Assembly (NCBI GenBank): GCA_902790525.1
Contig: CADASI010000084.1
Location: forward strand, 1 to 36,528
Length of the DNA: 36,528 bases
Direction: 5' to 3'
Origin: an uncultured Eubacteriales bacterium
Lineage (GTDB): Bacteria > Bacillota > Clostridia > Christensenellales > Aristaeellaceae
Shown one piece after another: positions 7,169 through 35,771 of the stretch (position 1 is its first letter; each line of letters opens with the position of its first letter). The notes under the pieces were generated by a model that was not told the DNA's origin, did no database searches, and saw only the letters and a program-made list of their open reading frames with translations. The translations under genes and the position numbers were made by a program.

Positions 7169-9076
7169 ATGTCACAGGTGAGCTTCGACAACTACACGCG
7201 ATCGGGCGATGTGGCGGTGATCGCCATCTGCGTCGTTATGATCATACTATTGACGACGTCCTATGTCAGCCGCACCCGCAGCTTCCGCATATTCATGAGC
7301 ATCATCGTCCAGCTGGTCTGCGCCGCGATGGTCAACATATCGTACCACACCCTCCTGATGGCGCAAAACCCCATATACCATCCCCTGATCTACGTGCAGC
7401 GCATACTGTACCACGCGCTGCTGTTGGACGTGCTGTTCCTCTTTACGCTGTACACCACCGTGGTCTCCGGGCTGGAGCACCGGAAGGCGCGGGTCGTGGC
7501 GGTCATATCCTCCGTGTTGCTCATCGGCATCATAATCATCGACATCGTGCTGACGTCCACCGGCATGGGCTTCCGCATCGGGCGAGACGGCACGGTGCTG
7601 CACAGGACGAACCTCTTTCTGATCGGCTATACGCTGTTCATAATCGTGCTGGTGGTGCTGATGAACCGCGCGAGAAAGCTGCTTTACAGGCGGGTCATGT
7701 ACGGCTTTTACGGCACCATGGCCGTCTCGCTGATCGTGCGGTTCACGCAGGTGGCGCTGAACCAGTCCTCCCTGACCACCATGACCTTCGTGTTCCCCGT
7801 GATCGCCATGATGTACATCATGCACTCCAATCCCTACAACGTGACCCTGGGCTCGGTGGACATCCACGCCATGGAGGACATGGTGCGGAACATGTACGCC
7901 CGGAAGGCGGCGTTTGTCTACCTGAGCATACTGCTGCCGGAGTACGACGAGGAGGGCAAGGAGCTGCCGCCGGAGGTGCGGGCGGTCATCCGCCGCTTTA
8001 CCGGGGATTACTTCCGAAGCAGCGTGCTGTTCCAGGTCGACAACGGCCACATGGTACTGATCGCCCCGAAGCGCCGCAACCCGGACTACGAGCGCCGGTT
8101 CGAAAACATATTGAAGGGCTTCGACAAACAGTACGCGCGCTTCCACATCCCCTACAAGATCGTTATCGGCGAGTCCATGGAGGAGATCAGCCGCAAGAAC
8201 GAGTACGTCAGCCTGATCAAGAGCATCCAGAAGGGCATGCCGGAGAACGCGGTGCACCGGACGTGCCAGGAGGACATCGACCGCTTCAACCGCAGCGAGT
8301 ACATCCTGCGGGAGTTGACGGACATCTACAACAAGCGGGATCTGGACGACCCGCGGGTGCTGGCCTTCTGCCAGCCGGTGTACAACCTCCAGACCGGCCG
8401 CTTCGACACGGCGGAGGCCCTGATGCGCCTCAGGCTGGACGAGACGGGGCTGGTGTACCCGGACCAGTTCATCCCGCTGGCGGAGAACTACGGCTTCATA
8501 CACGTGCTGACGGAGATCATACTGCACAAGACCTGCCGGGAGATCAAGCGGCTGACGGACGAGCGCTTCCAGATCAGCCGCATCAGCGTGAACGTGTCGG
8601 TGCTGGAGCTCAAGGACGACGCCTTCTGCGGCGACATCAACCGGATCATCGGCGACAACCGCGTGTCTGGCGACAAGATCGCCATCGAGCTGACCGAGTC
8701 TCGCAGCGAGGCGGACTTCATGCTCATGAAGGAGAAGATCGAGGAGCTGCGCGGCAGGGGCATCAAGTTCTACCTGGACGACTTCGGCACCGGCTATTCC
8801 AACATGGAGCGCATCATGGAGCTGCCCTTCGACATCATCAAGTTCGACCGCTCCCTGGTCATCGCCAGCGGCGCGGACCGGCGCTCCGAAAAGATCGTGG
8901 AGAACCTGGCGCACCTGTTCAGGGACATGGAGTACTCCGTGCTCTACGAGGGCGTGGAGGACGACGGGGACGAGGAGCGCTGTCGGGAGATGTCCGCCTC
9001 CTATTTGCAGGGCTATAAGTATTCCCGCCCCGTGCCCATCGAGCGGCTGAGGGAGTATCTGCCGAAGGCTGGATAA
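7169..9076 (+). CDS. Membrane c-di-GMP phosphodiesterase (EAL)
   Basis: The 635-residue protein has about seven hydrophobic helices (residues 15-220), then a region (about 225-385) that resembles a worn-out GGDEF fold (FQVDNGHMVLIAP where FRIGGDEFVVL is expected), and an EAL domain (about 390-630). The EAL motif is EALMR (E416). Other catalytic landmarks are NVSVLELKD, ELTES, LDDFGTGYSN (D537, D538), IKFDRS, YEGVED and QGYKYSRP, so hydrolysis of c-di-GMP to pGpG should be intact. The ATG has ribosome site AGGAGAG. It is divergently transcribed from the diguanylate cyclase, suggesting joint control of one local c-di-GMP pool. The signal sensed by the membrane part is unknown. Confidence 0.93.
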   Translation: MSQVSFDNYTRSGDVAVIAICVVMIILLTTSYVSRTRSFRIFMSIIVQLVCAAMVNISYHTLLMAQNPIYHPLIYVQRILYHALLLDVLFLFTLYTTVVSGLEHRKARVVAVISSVLLIGIIIIDIVLTSTGMGFRIGRDGTVLHRTNLFLIGYTLFIIVLVVLMNRARKLLYRRVMYGFYGTMAVSLIVRFTQVALNQSSLTTMTFVFPVIAMMYIMHSNPYNVTLGSVDIHAMEDMVRNMYARKAAFVYLSILLPEYDEEGKELPPEVRAVIRRFTGDYFRSSVLFQVDNGHMVLIAPKRRNPDYERRFENILKGFDKQYARFHIPYKIVIGESMEEISRKNEYVSLIKSIQKGMPENAVHRTCQEDIDRFNRSEYILRELTDIYNKRDLDDPRVLAFCQPVYNLQTGRFDTAEALMRLRLDETGLVYPDQFIPLAENYGFIHVLTEIILHKTCREIKRLTDERFQISRISVNVSVLELKDDAFCGDINRIIGDNRVSGDKIAIELTESRSEADFMLMKEKIEELRGRGIKFYLDDFGTGYSNMERIMELPFDIIKFDRSLVIASGADRRSEKIVENLAHLFRDMEYSVLYEGVEDDGDEERCREMSASYLQGYKYSRPVPIERLREYLPKAG

Positions 9077-26707: not shown

Positions 26708-28006
26708 TTATTCCGCCGCGATGGTGGCCACGTCGGTCCCCATGATATTCTGGATCTCGGACCACACGCCGCGCATGCGGGTGACATCGGTGTAGGCCAT
26801 GTTTTCGGGCTGGTCCTCGCGCCACTGGCCCACGGCCAGGGTGTGGTAGGCGTAGTTGTCGCCCTCGCCCTGCGCGCGCCAGACGTAGGTTGGGATGTAG
26901 GTCGGCGCGGTGATGGTGTACTTGCCGGTGGCCGGGCCGGTCTCCTGGATGGTGAACTCAAATATCACGCCGGAGTCGAAGTACTGGTCCCGCTGGTCGG
27001 ACAGGAAGTTGCCGGTGGAGCACATGATCAGCGTGCGGTGCACGTTGCCCTCGGCGTCCTTCGGGCCGTCCACCCACGCGGCGGGCTGCACGCAGTGGGG
27101 GCCGTAGCCGATGATCACGTCCACGCCCGCCTTGACCAGCACCTTCATGATGGTCTTCTGGTTGGCGGTGATATCGCGCTTGAGCATCTTGCCCCAGCTG
27201 ACGTAGCACACGATCACGTCCGCGCCCGCGGCCCGGGCGGCCTTGACGTCGGCGCTGGCGTTGGACTTGGTGACCAGGTTCACGGCGTTCAAAAGGCTCT
27301 TGGACGCTTCCTTTTCCTTGCCGCCGAGGTCCTCGGTGTAGGCCAGGAAGGCCACCTTGATGCCGTTGATCTCCACGATGACCGGGGTTTTCTTTTCCTC
27401 GGCGGAGGCCGCCGCGCCGATGTAGGCCATGTCGGCGTCCTGCAGGTTCTGCATGGTGGCCTTCAGCTCGTCCGCGCCGCCGTCCAGGGCGTGGTCGTTG
27501 GCCAGCGTCAGCATGTCCACGCCGCACTCCTTCAGCGTGTCGATAAGCGAGGGCGGGGTGATCATCTCGGACAGGTTGCCCTTGACGCCCGCGACGCCGC
27601 CCAGGGTGCCCTCCACGTCGGCCACGGTGTAGTCCGCGTTGCCCATGATCTCGCTGACGTAGCTGAACATTTCGCTGAAATCGAAGTCGTTGCCGTTGGC
27701 CACGGATTTGAGCAGGTTGAGCTGCATGGCGATCTCGCCCAGCGAGCGGATCCTGGCGGTCTTCGGCTCAGGCTCCGGCGTGGGGGAGGGCGACGGCGAC
27801 GGCGAGGGCGTGGGCGTCACGCTGGCCGGGTCGATTGTCGGCGTGGGCGTTTCCTTCACGAAGGGGTTGTCCATCCCGCCGAAGGGGTTGAACACCACCA
27901 TCACCACCACGCCTATTAAAATAAGTAAGAGTATCGCCAGTGTAATCAGGCCCAGCGGCGTGATGCGGTAATTGCCGACCCGCAGGCCTCTTACCTGTTT
28001 TGACAT
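26708..28006 (-). CDS. CapA/PgsA-like membrane-anchored metallophosphatase
   Basis: The start ATG 28006 has ribosome site GGAGGT 6 bases away; a longer frame upstream lacks one. The 432-residue product has a single N-terminal membrane helix (ITPLGLITLAILLLILIGVV), a Thr/Pro/Ser-Pro linker (residues about 52-80), and a PGA_cap metallophosphatase domain. Motifs are DYTVADVEGTLGG, LTLANDHALDGG, IIGYGPHCVQPAAW and CSTGNFLSDQ. CapA/PgsA relatives take part in poly-gamma-glutamate capsule synthesis, but many lone copies in Firmicutes have unknown substrates. There are no capB or capC partners in view. The gene is divergent from the 13-repeat His/Cys protein, sharing a 313-base control region. Confidence 0.9.
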   Translation of the reverse strand: MSKQVRGLRVGNYRITPLGLITLAILLLILIGVVVMVVFNPFGGMDNPFVKETPTPTIDPASVTPTPSPSPSPSPTPEPEPKTARIRSLGEIAMQLNLLKSVANGNDFDFSEMFSYVSEIMGNADYTVADVEGTLGGVAGVKGNLSEMITPPSLIDTLKECGVDMLTLANDHALDGGADELKATMQNLQDADMAYIGAAASAEEKKTPVIVEINGIKVAFLAYTEDLGGKEKEASKSLLNAVNLVTKSNASADVKAARAAGADVIVCYVSWGKMLKRDITANQKTIMKVLVKAGVDVIIGYGPHCVQPAAWVDGPKDAEGNVHRTLIMCSTGNFLSDQRDQYFDSGVIFEFTIQETGPATGKYTITAPTYIPTYVWRAQGEGDNYAYHTLAVGQWREDQPENMAYTDVTRMRGVWSEIQNIMGTDVATIAAE

Positions 28007-28054
28007 AACACTACCTCCAATAATCCCGTAATGATTCCGCAAAATTATGGATAT

Positions 28055-28083
28055 ATTATAACACAATCGAAATTCACAGGCAA
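28055..28083 (-). promoter_or_regulatory. Promoter of the CapA-like gene
   Basis: TTGCCT (28078-28083), 17 bases, TATAAT (28055-28060) on the minus strand. Confidence 0.85.
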
Positions 28084-28123
28084 TGGAAGAATGTGATCTT
28101 TCGGCATATTTTTTGCGATAATA

Positions 28124-28141
28124 TTTCGATATATTACGAAA
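28124..28141. promoter_or_regulatory. Possible operator between divergent promoters
   Basis: TTTCG and CGAAA flank an 8-base AT-rich centre inside a very AT-rich stretch between the CapA-like and His/Cys-repeat promoters. Regulator unknown; this is a weak suggestion. Confidence 0.25.
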
Positions 28142-28189
28142 CTGTTGCATTAAATTATGACAAAATTTCACTTTTTGTGCTCTAACCGA

Positions 28190-28218
28190 TTGACATTGCC
28201 CAATAGATGTTGTATGCT
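28190..28218 (+). promoter_or_regulatory. Promoter of the His/Cys-repeat gene
   Basis: A perfect TTGACA (28190-28195), 17 bases, then TATGCT (28213-28218). Confidence 0.82.
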
Positions 28219-28296: not shown

Positions 28297-28319
28297 CGGA
28301 GATATAAGGTGGTAAAAAT

Positions 28320-31300
28320 ATGGCAACACATGCGATTGGAAAATTGAAATTCAATCTGTCGAAGCAGGGTCTGGCCTACCGCTGGGGCGAGGGCGAGATC
28401 CATCGGCTGTTTGCCGGAAAGCCCAAGGCGGGCGATGCGGATAATGAGGAGAACTACACCGGCTACGAGGGCGAGGACTACGACGCCGACTACGCCGACG
28501 ACAGCAATGCGGATCCCGGCTACGACGACGGCTATGACGACGACGGCCAGGACTACGCCGACGATCCCGGCTTTGACGACGGCTACGACGATAGGTATGA
28601 CGACGGCTACGACGATAACGGGGACGGCTACGACGACGATCCCGGCTACGACGACGGCTATGACGACGCGGACGCCGGCGAGAGCTACGACGACGGCTAT
28701 GACGACGGCTACGACGACGAGACCTACGACGAGGGCGGCGAGGGCTACGACGATTCCGACGGCTACGACGACCGCTATTCCGACGAGGACGCCGGCGACG
28801 GCTACGGCGAGGAGGGCTACTACGCCAGCGAGAGCCCGCTGATGCGGTATGTGGACGAGAACGACTGGGTCACCTTCCTGCTTCTGTTCCTGTTCCCGCC
28901 GCTGGGCATCTACCTGCTGTGGCGCAGGAACCGGTTTGATAAGCCCATACGCTACGCCATCAGCGCGGTGTCGGCCATCTGGTTCATCGTGGCGCTGATA
29001 CTGTTGTTCCACAACCTGTTCGGCGGCTCAAGCGACAACCCCACCGACGCCACCATCACACTGGCCCCCTCCGCCACGGTCTCGGCGCTCAACCTGGACG
29101 GCTCGTCCGGCTCCGACCTTGACCTGACGGTGGACAACCTGGGCGGTGACGAGACCGGCGACAAGGCCGGCGACGAGACCGGCGACGAGGCGGACGACAG
29201 CGGCGACGATGGCAGCGACGAGGCCGCCGTGGCGCCCTCGCCCACGCCGCTGACCAGCTCCGGCGCCTCCGGCGCGGCCAGCAGCTCGGCCTACGTGTAC
29301 AGCCCGGCTACCGGATTGTACTACCACAGCAAGAGCGACTGTACCAACATCGACAAGGGCGTGTCGGTCTCCCGCGTGCCCAAGGACGTGGCGGAAAACA
29401 ACCGCAAGCAGTCCGCCTGCCCGGTGTGTATCGGCGCGGCGACGGACGGCGACACCACCACCTACTACGCCACCCGCGGCGGCACCTACTACCACGTGGA
29501 CCGCACCTGCCAGGGCATGACCGACGCCACCACCTACACCAAGGAGGCGGCTGAGCGCGCAGGCAAGACGCCCTGCCCGGTGTGCATCCTCAAGACCGCG
29601 CAGAGCCTGAAGTCCGGGTCGGTGAAGTTCATCACCTCCTCCACCCGGGACCGCAGCAACATCAACGTCTACTACACCAAGAAGGGCAAGTACTACCACA
29701 TGACCAGTACCTGCTCCGGCATGACCGGCGCGAGCCGCAACTCCCTGAAGAACGCCCTGCTGGCCGGCAAGGAAGCCTGCCCCACCTGCTGCAAGGCGGC
29801 GGGCAGCGATGTGTACTGCACCAAGAACGGCGAGAAGTACCATCTGGACAAGGCCTGCTCCGGTATGACCAACGCCATGGAGGTCACGCTGGCCGAGGCC
29901 ATGGTCATGGGCAAGAAGCGCTGCGACGTGTGCATCAAGAACGGCGCGCTGCCCACCGCGAGCCAGCTGGCCAAGCAGGCCGAGGAGAACTCGCTGGACA
30001 CCTACGTCTACGGCACGCCCAAGGGCCAGTACTACCACACCGACCAGTACTGCTCCGGCATGAAGGACGCCCAGCGCTACACCCTCAAGAGCATGCTGCT
30101 GCAGAAGCGCGCGCCCTGCCCGGTGTGCGCCTCCGCGTCCAACACCGTGGTGTACGCCAAGGAGGGCGGCACCTACTACCACAGCTACGCCACCTGCTCC
30201 GGCATGAGCAACGCCTCCAGCGGCACCATGGCCCAGGCCATCGCCGCGGGCTACAAGCGCTGCCCGCGCTGCTGGAGCGAGACCGGCGCCACCGGCACGC
30301 TGTCCACGGGCGTGGCGTCCACCACCTCCGCGGCGGCCACCGCCACGGCGGGCAACACCTACGTGTACGCCACCCAGGCGGGCGCCTACTACCACCTGAC
30401 CAGCAACTGCTCCGGCATGAAGAATGCCAGCCGCATCACACTCAAGCAGGCCATCGACGCCGGCAAGAAGGCGTGCCCCACCTGCGCGGGCGCGGCCAAC
30501 CGCAAGGTGTACTCCACCAAGGAGGGCAAGAACTACCACTCCGCCCCGGCCTGCAAGGAATCCGGCATGAAAAACGGCGAGGCGCGGACGCTGGCCCAGG
30601 CGCTGATGCTCAACCAGACGGCCTGCAAGTACTGCATCGGAAAGAAGAGCGGCGCATCGTCGAAATCCTCGGCGAAGAAGGCCAGCAGCAAGACCGTGGA
30701 GTCCATCAAGGCCGCGGCGAAGAAGCTCAAGAACAGCCACACCTACAAGAGCGGCAAGTCGGGCATCAAGGTCTACGCCCGGGCCGACGGCAAGTACTAC
30801 CACCGCCGGAAGAACTGCTCCGGCATGACCCACGCCAGCCGCATCACCCTGGAGCAGGCGATGAACTACGGCAAGCACGCCTGCCCGGTGTGCTGCTCCA
30901 CGGCGCGGCGCACGGTGTACGCCACGCGGGGCGGCAGGTATTACCATTACAGCAGGACCCACGCGGGCTCCGGCGCCAAGAGCGGCACCCTGGCCTCCGC
31001 GCTGGGCTACGGCTATGATCCCTGCCCGTACTGCGTCACCAAGACCAAGCGCCTCTCCCGCGTGGCCAGCTACAAGTCCGGCACCAGCGGCATCAAGGTG
31101 TACACCACCGCGGGCGGCAAGTACTACCACTCCAGGCGGGGCTGCTCGGACATGAAGAACCCCTCCCGCGTGACGCTGGAGACCGCCATGAACTACGGCA
31201 AGAAGCCGTGCCCGAAGTGCATGGCCTCCGCCAGCAAGAAGGTCTACTCCTCCTCCGGCGACCGGTACTACCACTACTACAAGATGCACGCCGGCTCGGG

Positions 31301-31697
31301 AGCCCAGGCGGGCACGCTGGCCAAGGCCAGGGCGATGGGCAAGAAGCTGTGCCCCACCTGCGCCAAGGGCAAGACCGTGGGCATCACCCTGAGCAACAAG
31401 GAGGCCAAGAACATCAGCAAGGCCGTGGCCGCGGCGCAGAAGCTGGGCACCGGCATCTCCACCAAGAGCGCCATCGCGTACAGCAAGGCGGTGGCCTCCC
31501 AGACCAAGTACTCCGCCCCCGGCAACACCAAGGTGTACGTCGATCTCACGGGCAAGCAGTATTACTACTACCACAAGTCCTCCAAGTGCTCCAAGACGGG
31601 CATGAAGAAGGGCACCAAGATCACCCTGCAATACGCCAGGGATTGGGGCTATAAGGCCTGCCCCTTCTGCCAGCCGCCGACGAAGGTGACGAAGTAG
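28320..31697 (+). CDS. Giant protein with acidic Tyr-Asp-Gly tract and 13 His/Cys-motif repeats
   Basis: The 1125-residue protein has four parts. Residues 38-168 are an acidic low-complexity tract of GYDDGYDD units. Residues 183-201 and 211-234 are two membrane helices joined by a basic loop (WRRNRFDKPIR). Residues 235-322 form a Ser/Thr/Asp linker. Residues 324-1125 hold 13 repeats of about 45 residues plus spacers, consensus VY-x3-GKYYH-x4-CSGM-x6-TL-x8-CPxC. Each has one His and three Cys, fitting a small zinc site as in Ada-like or YH-x-C...CxxC modules of Firmicute nucleases. In repeats 10 and 12 the first Cys is His. Repeats 9-10 and 11-12 are a duplicated pair. No signal peptide or catalytic domain is seen. 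It has its own promoter, leader hairpin and terminator, so it is a single-gene unit. Function is unknown; surface metal binding or scaffolding is inferred. Topology is uncertain. Confidence 0.93.
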   Translation: MATHAIGKLKFNLSKQGLAYRWGEGEIHRLFAGKPKAGDADNEENYTGYEGEDYDADYADDSNADPGYDDGYDDDGQDYADDPGFDDGYDDRYDDGYDDNGDGYDDDPGYDDGYDDADAGESYDDGYDDGYDDETYDEGGEGYDDSDGYDDRYSDEDAGDGYGEEGYYASESPLMRYVDENDWVTFLLLFLFPPLGIYLLWRRNRFDKPIRYAISAVSAIWFIVALILLFHNLFGGSSDNPTDATITLAPSATVSALNLDGSSGSDLDLTVDNLGGDETGDKAGDETGDEADDSGDDGSDEAAVAPSPTPLTSSGASGAASSSAYVYSPATGLYYHSKSDCTNIDKGVSVSRVPKDVAENNRKQSACPVCIGAATDGDTTTYYATRGGTYYHVDRTCQGMTDATTYTKEAAERAGKTPCPVCILKTAQSLKSGSVKFITSSTRDRSNINVYYTKKGKYYHMTSTCSGMTGASRNSLKNALLAGKEACPTCCKAAGSDVYCTKNGEKYHLDKACSGMTNAMEVTLAEAMVMGKKRCDVCIKNGALPTASQLAKQAEENSLDTYVYGTPKGQYYHTDQYCSGMKDAQRYTLKSMLLQKRAPCPVCASASNTVVYAKEGGTYYHSYATCSGMSNASSGTMAQAIAAGYKRCPRCWSETGATGTLSTGVASTTSAAATATAGNTYVYATQAGAYYHLTSNCSGMKNASRITLKQAIDAGKKACPTCAGAANRKVYSTKEGKNYHSAPACKESGMKNGEARTLAQALMLNQTACKYCIGKKSGASSKSSAKKASSKTVESIKAAAKKLKNSHTYKSGKSGIKVYARADGKYYHRRKNCSGMTHASRITLEQAMNYGKHACPVCCSTARRTVYATRGGRYYHYSRTHAGSGAKSGTLASALGYGYDPCPYCVTKTKRLSRVASYKSGTSGIKVYTTAGGKYYHSRRGCSDMKNPSRVTLETAMNYGKKPCPKCMASASKKVYSSSGDRYYHYYKMHAGSGAQAGTLAKARAMGKKLCPTCAKGKTVGITLSNKEAKNISKAVAAAQKLGTGISTKSAIAYSKAVASQTKYSAPGNTKVYVDLTGKQYYYYHKSSKCSKTGMKKGTKITLQYARDWGYKACPFCQPPTKVTK

Positions 31698-31711
31698 TTT
31701 GGGCAGACAGA

Positions 31712-31747
31712 CAGGGACCGCGACAGAATCGCGGTCCCTGTTTGTTT
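31712..31747 (+). terminator. Strong intrinsic terminator
   Basis: CAGGGACCGCGA (31712-31723), loop CAGAA, TCGCGGTCCCTG (31729-31740), then TTTGTTTT. It ends the His/Cys-repeat transcript. Confidence 0.93.
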
Positions 31748-33649: not shown

Positions 33650-33678
33650 AGTATAGCCCCATTTGCCCCGCCTTTCAA
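33650..33678 (-). promoter_or_regulatory. Promoter of the 99-residue gene
   Basis: TTGAAA (33673-33678) and TATACT (33650-33655) on the minus strand, 17 bases apart. Confidence 0.8.
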
Positions 33679-33750
33679 GGAAAATTTTCGTTTTCGGCAG
33701 GGAAAAGCGCCTCTTTTATAGAATATCACAACGTTACGGAGGTTTGAATT

Positions 33751-34026
33751 ATGAACAGGAGTTTCATCCGCACGGCGCTGAGCCTGCTGATCGTCATACT
33801 GTATGTGGTGGGGCTGGTGGCGATGTTCATGGGCAACGCCCGGCTGGGCATCGACCTGTGGGTGGCGTCCACCCTGGGCGGCATCGGGCTTTTATACTGG
33901 ATCCACGTGATGAAGAGGCGGGCGGAGGACGCCGAAAAGATCGCCAAGGGCATGCCCTACGGCGACCCGGACGATCCCGCCGCGCCGGTCAATCCCGTGG
34001 TCCCGAAGGCGGACGACGATCCATGA
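33751..34026 (+). CDS. Small membrane protein, 91 residues
   Basis: The product has two hydrophobic helices (LSLLIVILYVVGLVAMFMG and IDLWVASTLGGIGLLYWIHV) and a charged C-terminal tail with a Pro-Asp-rich end (YGDPDDPAAPVNPVVPKADD). Ribosome site ACGGAGG sits about 8 bases before the ATG. Its stop codon overlaps the trmB start (ATGA, 34023-34026), so the two are translationally coupled. The function is unknown; it may be a small integral membrane factor that happens to precede trmB. Confidence 0.83.
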   Translation: MNRSFIRTALSLLIVILYVVGLVAMFMGNARLGIDLWVASTLGGIGLLYWIHVMKRRAEDAEKIAKGMPYGDPDDPAAPVNPVVPKADDDP

Positions 34027-35771
34027 GGATGCGCAGGAAGCCCTGGACGGAGATCGAGCTGGCGGCCTGCCCCTTCATGATCGACCGGCCCTCCACCCAC
34101 ATCGGCCGGTGGCGGGCGTTCTTCAAGAAGGACCAGCCCGTGCACCTGGAGATCGGCTGCGGCAAGGGCGTCGCCACGGCGAAGATGGCGCGGGAGCATC
34201 CGGAGATCAACTACATCGCCATCGACGAGGTGCGGCACGTGCTGGCCGTGTCGGTGCGCAACGTCCGCGCGGCCTACGGCGATGCGCCGATCGACAACAT
34301 CGTGTTCTCCGCCGTGGACGCCATGATGATCCACGACACCTTCAACGCCGAGGACGGCATCGGGCGCATCTACATCAGCTTCCCCAACCCCTGGGACGAG
34401 CGGGCCAAGCACCACAAGCGGCGGCTGACGCATCCGCGGCAGCTCAACCAGTACCGGGCGTTCATGAAGCCCGGCGGCGAGATCTGGTTCAAGACCGACG
34501 ACGACGCGCTCTTCACGGCCTCGAAGCGCTACTTCCGGGAGGCGGGGTTCGAGGTCACCTACGCAACCGACGACCTGCACGCCTCGGGCTTTGAACCCAA
34601 CTATATCAGCGAACACGAAATGCTCTACGCGCAACAGGGCAAGAAGATACACTTCATGATCGCAAGGATGAACGACGGAGGGATGAAAGACATGGGCAAT
34701 TTCTTTGAAGACAACGCCAAAGCGCTTGAAAATTTCACCCGGGTCTCCACCGAGGTGGGCGCGCGGGCCGACTACGTGCAGGGCGGCGGCGGCAATACCT
34801 CGGCCAAGCTCTCGGGAGGGCTGATGGCCATCAAGGCGTCGGGCTACTGTTTAAAGGACATCCGGCCCGACAGGGCCTACGCCGTGTTGGACTACGAGGC
34901 GCTGCGCAAATTCTACTATGGCGCGGATCCCGCCGGGCTTGAGGACGTGGAGAAGGCCGGCAGCGACCAGGCGAAGGCCAACACCCGGGTGATCGAGGGC
35001 CTGCCGGCGCTTCGGCCGTCCGTCGAGGCGGGCTTCCACTCCATACTGGACACCTACGTGGCCCACAGCCACAGCGTGTACGCCAACCTGTGCACCTGCT
35101 CGAAGGAGCTGCCCGAGATCGCAAGGAAGGCCCTCGAGGGCGCGGACTACACCTGGGGCTGGGTGCCCTACGTCGATCCCGGCGCGCGGCTGACGTTCTC
35201 CATCCGCGACGAATTGAAGCGCGTGGAGGCCGAGACGGGCCGCCGTCCCGCCGCCATATTCATGCAGAACCACGGCCTGATCGCCCATGCCGACGACCCC
35301 GACGCATGCGTGCGCATCCACACCGACGTCAACGACCGCATCGCCCGGGCCTTCGGGCTTGAAAACGGCTGCTTCCCGGCGGTGTCCGTCAGGGACCTGG
35401 GCGGCGGGCTGTGCGAAGCGGTGTGCCCGTACCTGACCGAGGCGTTGAAGTCCGGCGCGTTCACCGAAAAGTTCCTGCTGGAGTCCCCGCTCTACCCCGA
35501 CCAACTGGTGTTTTTGACCGGCAGCTTCGCCTTCGGCGAGGGCGCGCCCGCGGAGGGCATGGCCGTGGCCAACCCCGTGACCGGCGCGGTGACCTTCAAC
35601 ATGCCCGCGGCCAAGGCGCAGGTCATCGCCGAGACGCTGTGCGCCATCGTGTTCATCGTCAAAAACATCGAAGCGAGCGGCTACACCCTGTCCACGCTGG
35701 GCGAGAAGGCCAAGCAGTTCATCGCCAACTGGGAGAGCGAGAAGTACCGCAAGTCGCTGGCGGGGAAGTAG
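34023..35771 (+). CDS. trmB: TrmB tRNA methyltransferase fused in frame to a class II aldolase
   Basis: One uninterrupted frame of 582 residues. Residues 1-216 are TrmB: SAM-binding LEIGCGKGVATAKM, YIAIDEV, and the signature ISFPNPWDERAKHHKRRLTH; it methylates G46 of tRNA at N7. A TrmB-like end (GKKIHFMIARM) passes without a stop into a class II aldolase/adducin domain (about 224-582) with VQGGGGNTSAKL, metal-binding AHSHSVYAN and MQNHGLIAH, as in rhamnulose- or fuculose-phosphate aldolases. Inside the junction GGAGGG (34677-34682) lies 9 bases before ATG 34692, so the aldolase may also be made separately. The TGA at 34684-34686 in the next frame suggests an earlier ATGA overlap joined by a one-base change. 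The TAG stop (35769-35771) is formed by the MITE. Confidence 0.85.
   Translation: MRMRRKPWTEIELAACPFMIDRPSTHIGRWRAFFKKDQPVHLEIGCGKGVATAKMAREHPEINYIAIDEVRHVLAVSVRNVRAAYGDAPIDNIVFSAVDAMMIHDTFNAEDGIGRIYISFPNPWDERAKHHKRRLTHPRQLNQYRAFMKPGGEIWFKTDDDALFTASKRYFREAGFEVTYATDDLHASGFEPNYISEHEMLYAQQGKKIHFMIARMNDGGMKDMGNFFEDNAKALENFTRVSTEVGARADYVQGGGGNTSAKLSGGLMAIKASGYCLKDIRPDRAYAVLDYEALRKFYYGADPAGLEDVEKAGSDQAKANTRVIEGLPALRPSVEAGFHSILDTYVAHSHSVYANLCTCSKELPEIARKALEGADYTWGWVPYVDPGARLTFSIRDELKRVEAETGRRPAAIFMQNHGLIAHADDPDACVRIHTDVNDRIARAFGLENGCFPAVSVRDLGGGLCEAVCPYLTEALKSGAFTEKFLLESPLYPDQLVFLTGSFAFGEGAPAEGMAVANPVTGAVTFNMPAAKAQVIAETLCAIVFIVKNIEASGYTLSTLGEKAKQFIANWESEKYRKSLAGK

Follow-up and report, generated by a model that had tools for sequence, protein, structure and literature searches.

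Thirteen mostly paired His/Cys units in a predicted membrane protein of an uncultured Clostridia bacterium: conserved candidate zinc sites related to Ada-type modules

The present work concerns one gene in a 36,528-nucleotide stretch of DNA (the window: positions 1 to 36,528 of contig CADASI010000084.1, assembly GCA_902790525.1) from an uncultured Eubacteriales bacterium of the gut, class Clostridia. A preliminary description of this DNA had placed an undescribed membrane protein with 13 His/Cys repeats at 28320-31697, and both the coordinates and the number of repeats were found to be right when the frame was read and the residues were located: this interval of the plus strand is a single open reading frame with an ATG start and 1,125 codons. 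The 13 units are probably metal sites, are grouped as six doublets followed by one single unit, and are related to the zinc modules of the Ada type. In our opinion, the protein is best understood as a membrane-anchored extracytoplasmic array of 13 zinc modules acting as an envelope scaffold or tether, a reading in which we place about even confidence.

The protein consists, in order, of a conserved N-terminal segment, an Asp/Tyr/Gly tract, two hydrophobic segments, an acidic linker and the 13 units, which reach the C-terminus. Each unit follows the formula H-x4-C(or H)...C-x2-C, with the His at residues 336, 392, 460, 508, 573, 621, 692, 740, 828, 876, 937, 985 and 1085. The fuller formula proposed earlier, YYH-x4-C(SGM)...CPxC, holds broadly, but there are departures, such as CTNI for C-SGM in unit 1, KYH and CDVC in unit 4, and NYH and CKYC in unit 8. 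His in place of the first Cys of units 10 and 12 is present as described, and so is an acidic Tyr-Asp-Gly tract of about 130 residues, since residues 45-172 (128 residues) comprise 36% Asp, 18% Tyr and 18% Gly. Two membrane helices had also been proposed; two hydrophobic segments do exist, but the first of them is interrupted at Pro193-Pro194.

Homologues were found in 48 of the 100 genomes searched as relatives (own genome included). A match at E <= 1e-140 occurs in 25 of the 27 other genomes of the same genus, and only a shorter relative was found in the remaining two (G016 and G025). Scanning with two short peptide patterns gave 41 loci in named contigs, titled as uncultured or metagenome-assembled Clostridia, Clostridiales or Eubacteriales, Candidatus (Ca.) Pullichristensenella, Ca. 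Faecivicinus and one Firmicutes bacterium, with sample names, where given, mostly from gut and rumen. One of the patterns covers the YYH of unit 6, so the conservation of that unit is partly selected for. Thirty loci were aligned with the array protein (31 sequences; pairwise identity 41-97%, median 54%), and the other 11 were left out of the ligand count and checked afterwards. A further alignment and the charge table were also made without L037, which contains X letters; in all 30 sequences of the table, the acidic N-terminal region has a net charge of -39 to -64, though its letters vary.

Conservation of the putative ligands is nearly complete. At the His and the second and third Cys (C2 and C3), all 1209 cells (three positions in each of the 13 units of 31 sequences) are identical, while the position of the first Cys (C1) is occupied by Cys in 346, His in 44 and Asp in 13 of 403 cases and never by a non-ligand residue. 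The exchanges at C1 are confined to units 9-12; unit 10 has His in 11, Asp in 11 and Cys in 9 of the 31 sequences, and unit 12 has His in 29 and Cys in 2. Invariant columns make up 48 of the 52 ligand columns versus 81 of the 565 other columns in the units (Fisher p ~1e-31 for rows that are related), and 1152 of the 1239 Cys residues in the alignment stand at ligand columns. The 11 left-out loci show H, C/H/D, C and C wherever whole units align, non-ligand letters occurring only where a unit is absent or the frame is broken (L061, L071). Homologues with unconserved His and Cys had been named in advance as evidence against metal binding, and the ligands proved to be conserved. Cys, His and Asp can all bind zinc, whereas only Cys forms disulphides. 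Because His, C2 and C3 are invariant and C1 is only Cys, His or Asp, the units are, judging by their sequences, probably metal sites rather than disulphides, and the metal is probably Zn. The earlier argument of the same kind, drawn from the His-for-Cys swap, is strengthened by the restriction of C1 in units 9-12 to these three residues. An additional Cys pair, C491/C500 (window 29790-29819), lies between units 3 and 4; both residues are present in 27 of the 31 sequences and may form a disulphide or a second site.

A confident model of doublet 5-6 (AlphaFold2, 150 aligned doublets), with a predicted local distance difference test score (pLDDT) of 93.1 and a predicted template modelling score (pTM) of 0.82, together with the fold matches, suggests that the His and Cys residues converge in space. 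Foldseek comparison of the doublet with predicted viral proteins (BFVD) gave 49 matches, one of them at E <= 0.001; this best match, named 'Metal binding domain of Ada', had E 4e-4, probability 1.00 and a root-mean-square deviation of 7.8 over 122 columns. Seven matches were named as an Ada domain or a methyl-phosphotriester repair domain (probability 0.96-1.00), and single-unit matches in this Ada-named set were at 1.4-1.5 A over 43-48 columns. The full-length model (30 sequences; pLDDT 63, pTM 0.27) has the order strand-strand-strand-helix in all 13 units, a disordered acidic tract and a first membrane segment broken at the Pro-Pro site.

Searches with the sequence gave no named family. With the whole protein, nothing exceeded the threshold in Pfam (DUF5658, E 0.017, is below the cut-off) or NCBIfam (E 0.54), and the PDB sequences yielded nothing over threshold with either the whole protein or the doublet profile; in PHROGs, phrog_14556 was matched (E 5e-9), a family of unknown function. 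The 23-bit cut-off of PF02805 (Ada_Zn_binding) was not reached, as the whole protein gave no hit and doublet 5-6 gave 12.2 bits (E 0.19). When 150 doublets were compared with Pfam, PF02805 was absent from the 25 families that the largest number of doublets matched; other zinc-finger families, with weak E-values, headed that list. A PF02805 search found no match in the host genome and matches in 17 of 99 genomes of the class. Seventeen modules were read among the 23 matches listed: 15 are H-x3-C...C-x2-C, one is a true Ada C-x3-C (L088) and one another C-x3-C. A loose pattern detects a lipobox-like start in eight of the 16 non-Ada proteins, and in the Ada protein as well. Of six tailed proteins examined with Pfam, five have metallo-beta-lactamase domains and one a DNA/RNA non-specific endonuclease domain. 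The unit profile (91 of 143 listed units) aligned with 14 tails found by PF02805 at an hhalign score of 29.5 and probability 91, and 100 column shuffles scored no higher than 16.9. Kinship of the units to nuclease-type tails and Ada-type sites, suggested at the outset, is thus supported by the PF02805 search, the reading of the tails, the profile comparison and the fold matches, though the units go without recognition by Pfam. In viral contigs, five stretches matched a pattern and none was confirmed. A phage search made after the PHROGs match gave a single record (L073, MT835924.1), labelled Bacteriophage sp.; read by eye, it resembles a bacterial tad pilus locus that includes an FHA-like protein, and the label is perhaps mistaken.

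Within pairs 3-4, 5-6, 7-8, 9-10 and 11-12, the His of the second unit follows the last Cys of the first at a distance of 18-19 residues; the corresponding spacing is 16-22 residues in pair 1-2, and between doublets and elsewhere it is 25-102. It is because of this short spacing within pairs that the array is described as six doublets and one single unit. Sequence comparison indicates that the units have individual identities: 298 of 377 orthologue units best match the same-numbered unit of the array protein, 29 being expected at random. Such identities suit a scaffold more than an interchangeable store. All 13 units are kept in 32 of the 41 loci, including L032 and L042 from the left-out group; contig ends truncate L063, L065, L066 and L068, and the frame of L061 is split in two.

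The strongly basic loop joining the hydrophobic segments should lie in the cytoplasm, which would place the array, beyond helix 2, outside. The stretch ahead of segment 1 is basic as well in two paralogues, which suggests a broken or re-entrant segment 1 and an N-terminal tract inside. Probably, the N-terminal tract is thus cytoplasmic and the array external. Doublets also occur in other apparently exported proteins. Among 398 genomes drawn from the phylum (the host included), four genomes other than the host, all of one family, carry doublets at E <= 1e-6, in each case at the C-terminus of TadE-like proteins (L075-L078); Pfam TadE matched two of the four, over the cut-off in one. In a genome of the same genus (L152:146-1929, G026:C2), a sigma-factor gene (Pfam Sigma70_r2 and Sigma70_r4_2) is followed directly by the gene of a protein with a single transmembrane segment, Pro/Thr repeats and one doublet, probably an anti-sigma factor. 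The TadE-like and sigma-linked contexts suggest a position of the doublet outside the membrane. Matches similar in size to this sigma-linked protein occur in other genomes of the genus. The host genome encodes two further unit-bearing proteins, one with one unit and one with four by eye (two by pattern); a Pro/Thr-linker membrane protein of this genome is among the apparently exported proteins with doublets.

A promoter of the type TTGAC(A/G)-17-TAT(G/C)CT was found upstream of the gene in 29 of 30 regions, this window included, with a pattern chosen after the sequences were read and L055 (short upstream) not counted. In the window alone, one site was found against 0.6 expected in shuffles, which is not rare by chance, and the case for the promoter therefore rests on conservation. 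The exception, L036, has different DNA there; upstream of its position 8001 the conserved promoter is missing, and inverted CCTTCCCCTCAAGGGGAAGG-like repeats occur in that stretch. On the 3' side, the segment 31700-31752 folds at -37.9 kcal/mol (z -8.8); the pattern scan did not list the hairpin given in Table 1. Among 36 loci with 1 kb or more of upstream DNA, 34 have the divergent CapA-like gene next to the array gene, the exceptions being the divergent L071 and L072, and mutY is also present in 31 of these 34; not counted were L055 and L057, whose upstream DNA is short, and the cut loci L042, L063 and L068. In Pfam, PF09587 was matched by this neighbour only and is absent from the array protein. 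Within the flanks examined, L032 and L033 were the only loci with the downstream cobalamin genes. Separately, one open frame at window 33663-35771 combines TrmB-like methyltransferase and class II aldolase domains and is matched over 702 residues in L032 and 673 in L033.

Table 1. Location and basis of the features assigned to the array gene and its surroundings (window coordinates)
Feature	Position	Strand	Basis
Divergent neighbour, CapA-like (PGA_cap) protein	26708..28171	-	Pfam PF09587, E 9.7e-53
Promoter TTGACA-17-TATGCT	28190..28218	+	Pattern scan and conservation in upstream regions
Likely ribosome-binding site AAGGTGG	28306..28312	+	Inferred from sequence
Gene of the 13-unit array protein, 1,125 residues	28320..31697	+	Open reading frame and homologues
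Conserved N-terminal segment, residues 1-31, predicted small beta-meander	28320..28412	+	Alignment; model pLDDT ~68-75
Disordered Asp/Tyr/Gly tract, residues 45-172	28452..28835	+	Composition; pLDDT ~30; acidic in relatives
Hydrophobic segment 1, residues ~182-203, helix broken at Pro193-Pro194	28863..28928	+	Sequence and full-length model
Transmembrane helix 2, residues ~208-234	28941..29021	+	Sequence and full-length model
Disordered acidic linker preceding the array	29022..29285	+	Charge and model
Doublet 1 (units 1-2)	29286..29594	+	Unit spacing, ligand alignment
Doublet 2 (units 3-4), extra Cys pair C491/C500	29658..29942	+	Spacing, alignment, Cys count
Doublet 3 (units 5-6), modelled at pLDDT 93	29997..30281	+	Spacing, alignment, model
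Doublet 4 (units 7-8)	30354..30644	+	Spacing, alignment
Doublet 5 (units 9-10), His at first-Cys position of unit 10	30762..31043	+	Spacing, alignment
Doublet 6 (units 11-12), His at first-Cys position of unit 12	31089..31370	+	Spacing, alignment
Unit 13, single, C-terminal	31533..31679	+	Sequence, alignment
Terminator-like hairpin between convergent genes	31711..31741	.	Folding energy

According to the scaffold or tether reading, each module would fold round a single Zn2+ ion with one His and three Cys as its ligands (His or Asp sometimes standing in for the first Cys). Zinc, in place of disulphides, would staple each small domain together, which would suit an anaerobe. The modules would be joined as six tight doublets and a final single unit, with variable and probably flexible linkers between them. 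The Asp/Tyr/Gly tract would stay in the cytoplasm and the array would hang outside after helix 2, serving as a constitutive scaffold or tether with many similar weak sites by which an envelope polymer or partner proteins are held. This role is preferred to a metal store because of the identity of the units, their well-kept number and the housekeeping-type (sigma-70-type) promoter. A metal-binding array and a surface scaffold had both been proposed in the preliminary description; the second fits the data better than a simple store of metal.

Several observations weigh against this interpretation. The number of units is not constant, since L060 has 11 (two are missing) and L067 six (it stops after unit 6), both in uncut frames, the divergent L071 and L072 have 11 by the pattern used, and other members of the family contain five (six stretches of the same genus) or, in other genera and with a similar pattern, 7, 10, 12 or 14; these exceptions weaken the scaffold argument a little and leave our estimate of it unchanged. 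The rows of the alignment are related, so the conservation counts are not independent events. Other good BFVD matches carry the name DUF4236 or none at all, and the PDB gave three matches, the first of which, E. coli Ada (1zgw), is weak (E 5.8, probability 0.14). The unit profile aligned with the single true Ada domain over 17 columns round C-x2-C at probability 33. With its low pTM, the full-length model is silent on the placement of the doublets relative to one another, and the predicted topology is based on the positive-inside rule and the paralogues. Finally, the net charge of the array ranges from +96 to -42 across the 30 sequences, and because it is not conserved, no charge-based ligand can be common to the family. 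Charge-driven binding of polyanions as a family-wide role was dropped, as the array charge flips sign.

An extracellular buffer or store of zinc or soft metals, similar to a surface metallothionein, would load and release metal at 13 sites. The 13 conserved ligand sets per molecule, the conserved near-consensus promoter and the varying number of units in part of the family, which a store could tolerate, agree with it. We nevertheless consider it unlikely, as the units are predicted to be folded and individual, most loci keep all 13, Cys accounts for just 40 of 1125 residues, and the neighbours matched are CapA-like, MutY-type and cobalamin genes, not metal transporters.

No more probable, in our view, is a surface array binding nucleic acids, which would hold extracellular DNA for uptake, nutrition or matrix as the Ada zinc domain binds DNA. 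The units are related in fold to that domain, the tail proteins checked carry the metallo-beta-lactamase or endonuclease domains mentioned above, and the array of the present protein has a basic pI of 9.7. Against this reading, 7 of 30 sequences, those of Ca. Pullichristensenella and Ca. Faecivicinus among them, have an acidic array (pI 4.5-6.1) with the same 13 units.

A sensor of redox state or alkylation, in which zinc thiolates outside would detect oxidants or electrophiles and the doublet of the putative anti-sigma factor would report inside, seems improbable to a greater degree. Two sources describe a zinc-bound Cys of Ada as reactive (PMC4999995, PMC4437013), and the latter gives Cys38 as the methyl acceptor; a sigma-factor gene does precede that of a doublet membrane protein in one genome of the genus. 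In all 403 units of the 31 sequences, the first ligand, which corresponds to Cys38 by motif order, is His, and this makes Ada-like alkyl transfer unlikely; thirteen units are also more than a sensor needs, and Pfam recognised no anti-sigma domain in the sigma-linked protein. Extracytoplasmic Cys-rich repeats are often disulphide-bonded and C491/C500 could be so, but a metal-free disulphide-bonded repeat protein is hardly credible given the odd number (three) of ligand Cys per unit, the replacement of the first Cys by His or Asp only, and the invariant His.

Beyond the scaffold or tether reading of this one protein, the doublet may tentatively be regarded as a general module outside the cell in Clostridia, found in secreted enzymes, pseudopilins, anti-sigma sensors and arrays and directed to one envelope ligand. 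The 13-unit protein would then be a zinc-stapled tether from membrane to wall, with the CapA-like protein as its partner; this broader proposal is possible but doubtful. Thirteen near-perfectly conserved, paired, predicted metal sites outside the cell would, if real, represent an unusual disulphide-free design of a surface protein. The family is accessible to experiment, since the 98-residue doublet can be used as a unit for studies of metal, structure and ligand. One envelope ligand of the doublet shared by the TadE-like and putative anti-sigma proteins could explain several uncharacterised proteins of gut Clostridia.

Literature searches turned up no description of a 13-unit array, which is not proof that none is in print. 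Metallothioneins are short Cys-dense chains without a folded core that have several soft-metal sites per chain. The array, too, has several such sites, but it differs in its folded domains (the doublet being modelled at pLDDT 93), its 40 Cys in 1125 residues and its His ligand in every unit. The TadE-like proteins have two units of the H-x4-C...C-x2-C type in the same doublet layout, with only one doublet, on a pilin-like stem. The tails of the metallo-beta-lactamase-fold proteins and the endonuclease have one His and three Cys per module, like the array units, but they are single and of the H-x3-C type, whereas the array has 13 units, of the H-x4-C type and arranged as doublets, and includes membrane segments as well as an acidic tract. 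The Ada zinc domain (PF02805, 1zgw) shares with the units the ligand order with the closing C-x2-C and a preceding segment of the A-x3-G-x2-(P/A)-C type; it differs in having four Cys (C-x3-C...C-x2-C) with the reactive Cys38 in first place, where every unit has His. Thus, the kind of module is known, and the 13-unit array with its layout of six doublets plus one is new.

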